A stretch of 45,680 nucleotides of DNA from an uncultured Candidatus Berkelbacteria bacterium (GTDB lineage Bacteria; Patescibacteriota; UBA1384; CAILIB01), in contig CAILIB010000045.1 of assembly GCA_903834195.1 (NCBI GenBank), positions 1 to 45,680 of the forward strand, in the 5' to 3' direction. The notes below the pieces were generated by a model. That model was not told the DNA's origin. It saw only the letters and a list, made by a program, of their open reading frames with translations, and ran no database searches. Numbering within the stretch: position 1 is the stretch's first letter; the number at the start of each line of letters is the position of its first letter. Below, in pieces: positions 43,924 through 45,680 of the stretch. A program made the position numbers and the translations under genes.

Positions 43924-44874
43924 CTAACGGACCAAGTCTAATCTAGACCTGTCGTCTGCGTACTTTTTACGCAAGTAAGGAAGCATTTTTTGCTTAAATT
44001 CTGCACTATGCATAAGTTTCATTGCGTCACTGTCTGCCACTGAAATTGGCCCCTCCTTAAACCGCTCATCCATTTTTTCTTTGTCAGTAAGGTATTCTTT
44101 TTCATACGCATCTGGATCTGAAACATACCTCACATACTCTAGGGCAAATGCCTGTTTGTCATTCTCAATAGTAGTATCTGCATTGTGTAGAAAATTATTG
44201 AGTGCCCCATCAAACCGCTGTGTATAAGAAGGGTGTATATCCAAATTCTTTTCAATAAACTTTCCAACTACCGTAGTAGCCATAGTATCACTCATCCCCA
44301 ATGCTTCAGCAGTATTTGGCTTCCGAGGGTACGAATCATGCTGCGTAGTAAATGGGTAGGTAATGGAACCGTTTAACAGCACATCTGATCCAACACCAAG
44401 CGTATCTTTAAGATCAATGCCTTGTACTTCCGGATGACGCTCGAGCCAATGTGCGATGACTATTTCCTGGTTATCAGTAAGCGCAGTAGTAAGCTCAGTA
44501 GTCACTTTACCGGATGTCATGGTACGGGCATACTGCACTTGTTCTGCATGCTTTTTTGCCGTGTCTTCGTACACACTGAAACCTCCAGCCAATACAAGTA
44601 ATGCCAAGGCACGAAGACCCCACTTTTGTATTAATGGATGGATTTGACTTAACGTATCACGCAAACGAAACTCTTCCTCTGCTTGCTGTGGCACGTCAGC
44701 ATGTATTACTGCTGCAACATCCTCCAATTCAGACGCCGATAGAGGGTCCTGCTTCACAGCTGCCAATAACTCAGAGGAAGCATTTTCTGTAAGGACCTCA
44801 AGATCGATAAGATGCTTTTCGTCACCTCGTTCAACGATTTCACTATGTGTATACTGAATATCTTCAGGTCTCAT
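43924..44874 (-). CDS. Single-pass membrane protein of unknown function
   Basis: A 316-residue protein with an acidic N-terminal cytoplasmic part (residues 1-85), one membrane helix (about 88-104, ALALLVLAGGFSVYE) and a ~210-residue external or periplasmic-like domain, rich in Lys, Asp and Glu. No family was recognised. The ATG at 44874 is chosen because TATACT lies 8 nt upstream. A TTG two codons earlier is possible. The gene is a single unit between its own promoter and the terminator at 43831-43878. Confidence 0.6.
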   Translation of the reverse strand: MRPEDIQYTHSEIVERGDEKHLIDLEVLTENASSELLAAVKQDPLSASELEDVAAVIHADVPQQAEEEFRLRDTLSQIHPLIQKWGLRALALLVLAGGFSVYEDTAKKHAEQVQYARTMTSGKVTTELTTALTDNQEIVIAHWLERHPEVQGIDLKDTLGVGSDVLLNGSITYPFTTQHDSYPRKPNTAEALGMSDTMATTVVGKFIEKNLDIHPSYTQRFDGALNNFLHNADTTIENDKQAFALEYVRYVSDPDAYEKEYLTDKEKMDERFKEGPISVADSDAMKLMHSAEFKQKMLPYLRKKYADDRSRLDLVR

Positions 44875-44882
44875 ATGCAATT

Positions 44883-44976: not shown

Positions 44977-44985
44977 TGCTAATAT
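44977..44985 (+). promoter_or_regulatory. Extended -10 promoter of the attenuator
   Basis: TGCTAATAT with TAATAT at 44980-44985. The leader peptide ATG lies 7 nt further on (44993), so the leader would itself be read from a leaderless transcript. The -35 region is poor. Confidence 0.5.
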
Positions 44986-44992
44986 CTACCCA

Positions 44993-45052
44993 ATGAAACT
45001 TCATCAACTAACCAGCTATTATTACGCCCTAACCCTCTCTCAAGAAGGCTAG
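44993..45052 (+). CDS. Putative leader peptide with Tyr-Tyr-Tyr
   Basis: A 19-codon ORF, MKLHQLTSYYYALTLSQEG, ends in TAG. Three consecutive tyrosine codons (TAT TAT TAC, 45017-45025) sit about 19 nt upstream of the segment GAAGGCT (45044-45050), which overlaps the last codons and the first base of the stop. This is the layout of amino-acid attenuation leaders such as those of trp and phe operons. The start lies at the predicted transcription start. Function is inferred from the arrangement with the helices at 45044-45104. Confidence 0.55.
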   Translation: MKLHQLTSYYYALTLSQEG

Positions 45053-45104
45053 TCTTCGCGTACTATTTCGCCAAGCACACACTGAGCCTTCCGGGCTCAT
45101 TTTT
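45044..45104 (+). promoter_or_regulatory. Transcription attenuator (antiterminator/terminator pair)
   Basis: Terminator: TGAGCC (45083-45088), loop TTCCG, GGCTCA (45094-45099) and five T (45100-45104). Antiterminator: GAAGGCT (45044-45050) is fully complementary to AGCCTTC (45085-45091), which shares bases with the terminator's left arm. A ribosome stalled at the Tyr codons would leave GAAGGCT free and allow read-through. One that reaches the stop would cover it and allow termination. Confidence 0.6.
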
Positions 45105-45134: not shown

Positions 45135-45680
45135 ATGAAAACAGCAGGAATTATCGGAGGACTCGGACCAGAAACAACCGCCGAGTTCTACATGGAAATC
45201 AATTTTGCCTGTCAGCAGCTTAATACAAAAAATCGGCCACCAATGCTCATCTGGAACGTTCCCCTTATTTACCAGATTGAGCAGGATCTTTTGACCAAAA
45301 ATACAGGTCAGGAACGCTACATTCCATTCCTTATTGAAGCCGCAACTCGCCTCGAAAAAGGCGGAGCTGACTTTTTGGTAATGCCGTGCAATACCTTGCA
45401 CATTTTTATGAATGAAATCCGAAACTCGGTTAAGATTCCCGTCTTAAGTGTGGTAGAAGAAACAGCAACCTTTCTGGGCAGCAAAAAGATTGATGAAGTT
45501 GGACTCTTGGGCACCTCAACTACGGTAAGCCAAAATTTGTACGAATCCGACCTAGCAAAGCACGGAATTATTCAACGTATTCCTGATGGATTTGCCCAGG
45601 CGAAAATCAGTAAAATGATCAGCAACCTCTTTTCTGACTCCGCCTACCTTTGGGCAGTATGGCTGGTATCGCGGAGATGC
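45135..45680 (+). CDS. Aspartate/glutamate racemase family protein (3' end outside the window)
   Basis: The reading frame opens at 45135 and runs off the right edge (182 residues visible). MKTAGIIGGLGPETTAEFY and GGADFLVMPCNTLHIF match the Asp/Glu racemase (Asp_Glu_race) family. The Cys in MPCNT is the first catalytic cysteine. GLLGTSTTVSQNLYESDL follows, as usual. The second catalytic cysteine, in the GCTE motif, lies beyond the window. These enzymes make D-aspartate or D-glutamate for the cell wall. The gene follows the attenuator at 44993-45104, and 30 nt separate the terminator from the ATG. Confidence 0.8.
   Translation, partial: MKTAGIIGGLGPETTAEFYMEINFACQQLNTKNRPPMLIWNVPLIYQIEQDLLTKNTGQERYIPFLIEAATRLEKGGADFLVMPCNTLHIFMNEIRNSVKIPVLSVVEETATFLGSKKIDEVGLLGTSTTVSQNLYESDLAKHGIIQRIPDGFAQAKISKMISNLFSDSAYLWAVWLVSRRC

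Follow-up and report, generated by a model that had tools for sequence, protein, structure and literature searches.

A probable tyrosine-codon transcription attenuator, with a leader peptide likely to be leaderless, before an amino-acid racemase gene of the Patescibacteria

Why should a short open reading frame with three consecutive tyrosine codons, followed by a transcription terminator, lie before an amino-acid racemase gene in an uncultured Candidatus Berkelbacteria bacterium? The window, that is, the whole stretch of DNA that was analysed, is a complete contig of 45,680 bases from a 1.13-Mb genome of 46 contigs, estimated to be 76% complete. A sequence-only reading had proposed that a ribosome stalling at the Tyr codons decides between an antiterminator and the terminator, with the ATG of the peptide at or near the start of the transcript. 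Folding and many independent cases in the racemase family agree with this proposal, and we consider classical ribosome-mediated attenuation to be the best explanation for the element (probability about 0.8): it would sense the supply of tyrosyl-tRNA and control the racemase gene, by way of a leaderless leader peptide. The parts of the element and the genes on either side of it are the following.

43924-44880, strand opposite to the racemase: upstream neighbour gene
44977-44985, + strand: TGC-TAATAT as a putative extended -10 element, with the leader ATG 7 nt further on (leaderless or nearly so); from the sequence
44993-45052, + strand: leader peptide open reading frame, MKLHQLTSYYYALTLSQEG, 19 codons, ATG at 44993 and stop TAG at 45050-45052; from the sequence, shuffling and the joint test
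45017-45025, + strand: control codons TAT TAT TAC (Tyr-Tyr-Tyr); from the sequence
45029-45052, + strand: protector hairpin of the 1:2 type, in which the region after the Tyr codons pairs with GGC-TAG; from the fold of 45027-45104
45044-45091, + strand: antiterminator hairpin of 16 bp, 45044-45060 with 45069-45091, outer arms GAAGGCT/AGCCTTC; from folds and the pairing test
45083-45104, + strand: intrinsic terminator TGAGCC-TTCCG-GGCTCA (45083-45099) followed by TTTTT (45100-45104); from the terminator call and the fold
45135-45680, + strand: amino-acid racemase gene (PF01177; TIGR00035), residues 1-165 at 45135-45629, cut by the contig end

The open reading frame, the Tyr codons, the terminator and the complementary segments all lie where the sequence-only reading had placed them, GAAGGCT at 45044-45050 and AGCCTTC at 45085-45091, but the extent of the pairing had been underestimated, since these heptamers are only the outer part of the 16-bp antiterminator seen in the folds. 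The triple TATTATTAC is by itself unsurprising, with 0.40 occurrences expected in the window; a leader with at least three Tyr, Trp or His in six residues before the terminator has p = 0.03 by shuffling, and the antiterminator pairing reaches p = 0.003, the lowest value that 300 shuffles allow. The terminator (-9.6 kcal/mol) sits between the putative promoter and the racemase gene, and because the upstream gene is on the other strand, it cannot be the end of that gene. A promoter before the leader ATG is plausible. The earlier claim that it puts this ATG at the transcription start is borne out in that an extended -10 element ends 7 nt upstream, and is tempered by a TAATAT that agrees with the consensus TATAAT at 4/6 positions and escaped a consensus promoter scan, with no good -35 upstream of the ATG. 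With transcription starting at or just before the ATG, the mRNA that carries the 19-codon leader would probably be translated as a leaderless one.

Folding was done on the RNA left free at each ribosome position, with assumed ribosome footprints defining the cuts. With the ribosome stalled at Tyr (45043-45104 free), the minimum-energy structure is the 16-bp antiterminator, at -16.2 kcal/mol. With the ribosome at the stop codon it is the terminator, at -14.0 or -9.8 kcal/mol (45053- or 45063-45104 free), and with the leader untranslated (45027-45104 free) it is the 1:2 hairpin together with the terminator, at -18.4 kcal/mol. These folds correspond to the three structures expected of a classical attenuator: the antiterminator, which excludes the terminator, becomes available on a stall at Tyr and is masked once the ribosome reaches the stop. 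In the window, 17 nt separate the last Tyr codon from the antiterminator; across the 31 leaders described below this spacing ranges from 5 to 20 nt. When Tyr-tRNA is ample, the ribosome would get to the stop codon and cover the segment from 45044 to about 45060, which would block the 2:3 hairpin and let the terminator form, so that transcription would end near 45104. When Tyr-tRNA is scarce, the ribosome would stall at 45017-45025, and 45044-45060 would pair with 45069-45091, using up the left arm of the terminator, so that the racemase gene could be transcribed. A leader that is not translated at all would form the 1:2 hairpin (45029-45052), which is predicted to bring the terminator back.

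The racemase gene is identified by its matches to TIGR00035 (125.3 bits; cut-off 93.1) and PF01177 (94.9 bits; cut-off 31). Its C-terminal part is found in reversed orientation on another contig of the same genome (G000:C36), which we regard as the continuation of the gene because the racemase of another bacterium (L004) matches both parts, the window as residues 1-165 and the reversed C36 as residues 181-224. The C36 piece on its own matches PF01177 with E 3e-5 and 24.2 bits, under the cut-off of 31. The window part contains the cysteine motif MPCNTLH and C36 the motif LACTDL, whose cysteines are presumably the catalytic cysteines of the racemase. The last 51 or so bases of the window (45630-45680) have no racemase-family match though the gene goes on in C36, possibly a sign of a poor contig end. 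The genes beyond the window edge had been named as a place to look for tyrosine or aromatic functions. None follows the racemase: the next gene, on C36, encodes DUF4287, and tyrS, a candidate for that position, is ruled out, as it lies on contig C3; our scan found no aromatic leader before it. Queries with prephenate dehydrogenase, prephenate dehydratase, DAHP synthase and aminotransferase found no relative in this incomplete genome, which fits a Tyr auxotroph. The putative link between the racemase and the supply of tyrosine is indirect in the host genome; in relatives, racemase genes adjoin tyrS, trpS, hisS and tyrA-like genes.

Racemases of this family are patchily distributed, being present in 6 of 55 genomes of the window's class and in 49 of 379 sampled across the phylum; a deeper search found them in 131 of 373 genomes, including weak matches that resemble glutamate racemase. 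Reading the regions upstream of these genes turned up short open reading frames with clusters of Tyr, Trp and His, followed by terminators, and 50 of the 188 loci examined have a terminator no more than 160 nt before the racemase start. In a set of 51 loci, made up of 50 relatives (one locus counted twice) and the window, a leader with at least three of these residues in six was found at 20, against 1.8 expected from shuffles that preserve the terminator, and one with at least four at 6 (0.2 expected). To meet the objection that Tyr, Trp and His were a post hoc choice, we ranked all 969 residue triplets; HWY headed the list, at 20 of 50 loci against 2.2 expected. Three loci (L067, L195 and L226) were left out because no racemase start was found. 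Two more rows, L219 and L242, duplicate L190 and L192; they were removed from the tree, the joint test and the triplet ranking, while still being counted in the 188-locus reading and the 51-locus leader count; the identical racemase rows L187/L233, L022/L253 and L024/L266 may also be duplicate loci.

From the loci with terminators we selected 31 leaders for their content, blind to antiterminator pairing; one of them (L283) begins with GTG. In 23 of these 31, the RNA downstream of the control codons pairs with the terminator's left arm better than its shuffled versions do at p<=0.05, and in 17 at p<=0.01; among 157 terminators at gene ends in the host genome, the corresponding numbers are 9 and 1. 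When partners were swapped across loci, none of 20000 permutations reached the native mean pairing. The arms vary in sequence from locus to locus yet stay complementary. Of the 31 leaders, 21 have a -10 box (at least 5/6 positions matching) whose end lies 4-14 nt upstream of the ATG, where 1.7 are expected. Two further features were seen at racemase loci. In four genomes (L193, L242, L282 and L283, in G300:C7, G230, G568 and G615) the racemase gene is broken into two frames near residue 145-165, a recurrent feature that may reflect gene splitting, frameshifting or decay. A gene for a TrpR-like regulator lies just upstream of the racemase in L277, with a WW leader between them, and just upstream of trpS-racemase in L022.

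Of the alternatives, coincidence survives best: the racemase promoter would lie after 45104, and the short open reading frame and the terminator would be unrelated intergenic sequence. An aromatic-cluster open reading frame does lie near 24 of the 611 T-tailed hairpins of the host genome, the -10 box of the window is an incomplete one, and the closest relatives of the racemase are without the element. When an aromatic leader, a -10 box and an antiterminator are sought jointly at a T-tailed hairpin, however, only 2 of these 611 pass, the window site and one inside the 3' end of a gene, and a good -10 before the racemase start at 45135 is not visible by eye. Moreover, the architecture recurs: 15 of 49 Patescibacteria racemase loci with a 5' terminator pass the same test, whereas among the 331 remaining hairpins of those loci a single one does. 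We therefore judge coincidence to be improbable. The lone passing control hairpin (L012) precedes a tyrA-like gene and is itself probably a real attenuator, because its open reading frame, with six Tyr in eight residues, sits between the racemase gene and tyrA-like and aminotransferase genes. This leader, MCFNVLYYSYYYYVAGKIQASFGMLKQ, has its own terminator and lies downstream of the racemase start, at roughly +700 to +950.

Conservation in close relatives, which the sequence-only reading had expected of both the Tyr codons and the pairings, did not hold. In the window's subclade (29 rows in a tree of 129 racemases) no other row has such a leader, including the nearest rows L005, L019, L006 and L004. 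Both L004 and L019 lack such a leader although a synthetase gene is close by, tyrS next to the racemase in L004 and trpS some 2.4 kb downstream in L019. The element occurs in other lineages of the racemase family. Covariance models built from other attenuators, with no window sequence in training, gave the site 5.5 and 2 bits, which is no real match, and attenuator homology by sequence with other families is ruled out by the models R3 (window-free training) and R1. A further model, R2, scores the window well because it was trained with the window included; the weak R2 matches elsewhere in the host genome (C24 and C37) look like chance. Since the window-free models miss the site, what is common to these loci is an architecture, not a sequence family. 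Together with the negative result in the subclade, this suggests that the window element was gained, or diverged past recognition, independently.

It is very unlikely that the unit is an independent small RNA, some 110 nt long, with its own promoter and terminator and no relation to the racemase. A transcript of that length could arise, and its fold z-score is -2.55. No Rfam family, T-box included, matches the window element at the gathering score, the best match (E 0.08) being to another family on the other strand and below threshold. In addition, the terminator is lost from the minimum-energy fold of the complete unit, which is odd for a stable small RNA and expected of a switch, and the Tyr-codon open reading frame would be left unexplained.

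Many genomes carry racemase genes with leaders and, after them, trpS, tyrS or hisS. We combined the racemase-locus leaders with those found by the covariance models R1 (matches in 45 of 373 genomes) and R2 (63 of 379; window in training). Synthetases were labelled by BLAST against single references, some being checked with Pfam or NCBIfam, within about 3.2 kb on the same strand. Trp is present in 19/19 leaders of trpS, His in 7/7 of hisS, and two or more Tyr in 4/4 of tyrS. Trp separates trpS from the rest and His separates hisS from the rest (p = 0.0008 each), though not cleanly, as Trp is also found in 2/7 hisS and 3/4 tyrS leaders, and His in 5/19 and Tyr in 16/19 trpS leaders; in L283 a second attenuator and another gene lie between the first leader and trpS. 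Antiterminator pairing at p<=0.05 was seen in 29 of 34 further leaders, which we chose for leader content after reading 64 model-matched loci; among 30 of the model-matched loci, 11 repeat racemase loci counted before. That the same switch responds to another signal, with translation of an aromatic peptide slowed by a ribosome-targeting inhibitor or by the nascent peptide and not by Tyr-tRNA charging, is a highly improbable reading, favoured by racemase leaders that mix Tyr and Trp beyond the needs of a single-amino-acid sensor, but opposed by a codon identity that tracks the adjacent synthetase (Trp with trpS, His with hisS) and by peptides that have no fixed sequence in common.

In the window's class, L333 has a YYYY leader and a competing hairpin before a prephenate-dehydrogenase-like gene, a match of R2 that was partly helped by the window in its training. 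The models also found Phe-rich leaders before pheS (L322), prephenate dehydratase (L318) and DAHP synthase (L341). More generally, the leaders of L318, L322, L327, L339 and L341 are rich in Phe, Trp or Tyr, and among their targets are a PDH-PDT fusion and a DAHP synthase gene with trpS after it; pheS comes after the leader in L322 (checked with Pfam) and in L327 (by eye). Leaders with runs of His (HH or HHH; SHYY in L304) and attenuator hairpins occur in L299, L303, L304, L308, L309 and L311, with hisS downstream on the same strand in L303, L304 and L311. Short open reading frames rich in Ile or Leu at the model matches L323, L329, L337 and L346 are possibly branched-chain attenuators. Tandem attenuators of one model family flank a racemase in two cases (G464:C3:91480 and 92852; G615:C35:1014 and 2614).

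A tentative generalization, against which the odds still lean somewhat, is that ribosome-mediated attenuators whose leader peptides are leaderless and rich in Tyr, Trp, His or Phe occur throughout the Patescibacteria, which are streamlined and largely auxotrophic, and that the racemases they control are aromatic or histidine racemases. If so, these racemases may, for example, convert scavenged D-Tyr, D-Trp or D-His to the L-enantiomer used by the adjacently encoded synthetase. A predicted switch with matching codons precedes tyrosine, tryptophan and histidine genes in many related bacteria. Tiny genomes without amino-acid pathways seem to employ classical attenuation, and regulatory logic comes within view for organisms known almost solely from metagenomes. 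As control codons show which amino acid a gene serves, direct tests become feasible, both of what an orphan racemase family does and of whether attenuation employs a leaderless leader peptide.

Ribosome-mediated attenuators are known for the trp, his and phe operons of enterobacteria. The window element differs from these in that its leader ATG lies some 7 nt after the -10 box, probably with no Shine-Dalgarno sequence, and in that its control codons are Tyr, its target is a racemase and its host belongs to the Patescibacteria. T-box riboswitches of tyrS and trpS in the Firmicutes sense the charging of the same tRNAs through a choice between terminator and antiterminator; that mechanism uses no leader open reading frame, whereas the window element has one. 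The list of operons for which attenuation was earlier called well known (trp, phe and his) is correct and incomplete, as the available part of one study predicts attenuators before trpS and leuS in Streptomyces and names pheST as a gamma-proteobacterial case (PMC1262725). In its conclusion, the same study counts tyrosine genes of other species among those under T-box control. Its synthetase attenuators, as far as that part goes, have leader peptides with matching codons, as in the relatives described here, but there the synthetase is under direct control and a racemase is not mentioned. The earlier statement that no case had been described in Patescibacteria or before a racemase agrees with the open-access literature, in which we found no such attenuation in this phylum, including Saccharibacteria and Parcubacteria, no attenuator before a racemase and none with a tyrosine-codon leader peptide; the open-access papers on the candidate phyla radiation that mention a leader peptide concern other matters in the portions available. 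Trp-type attenuation with leaderless leader peptides is thus apparently undescribed in this phylum, and what would be new relative to the known systems is a trp-type attenuator with a leader that begins at or near the 5' end of the transcript, with Tyr control codons and with a racemase as its target.
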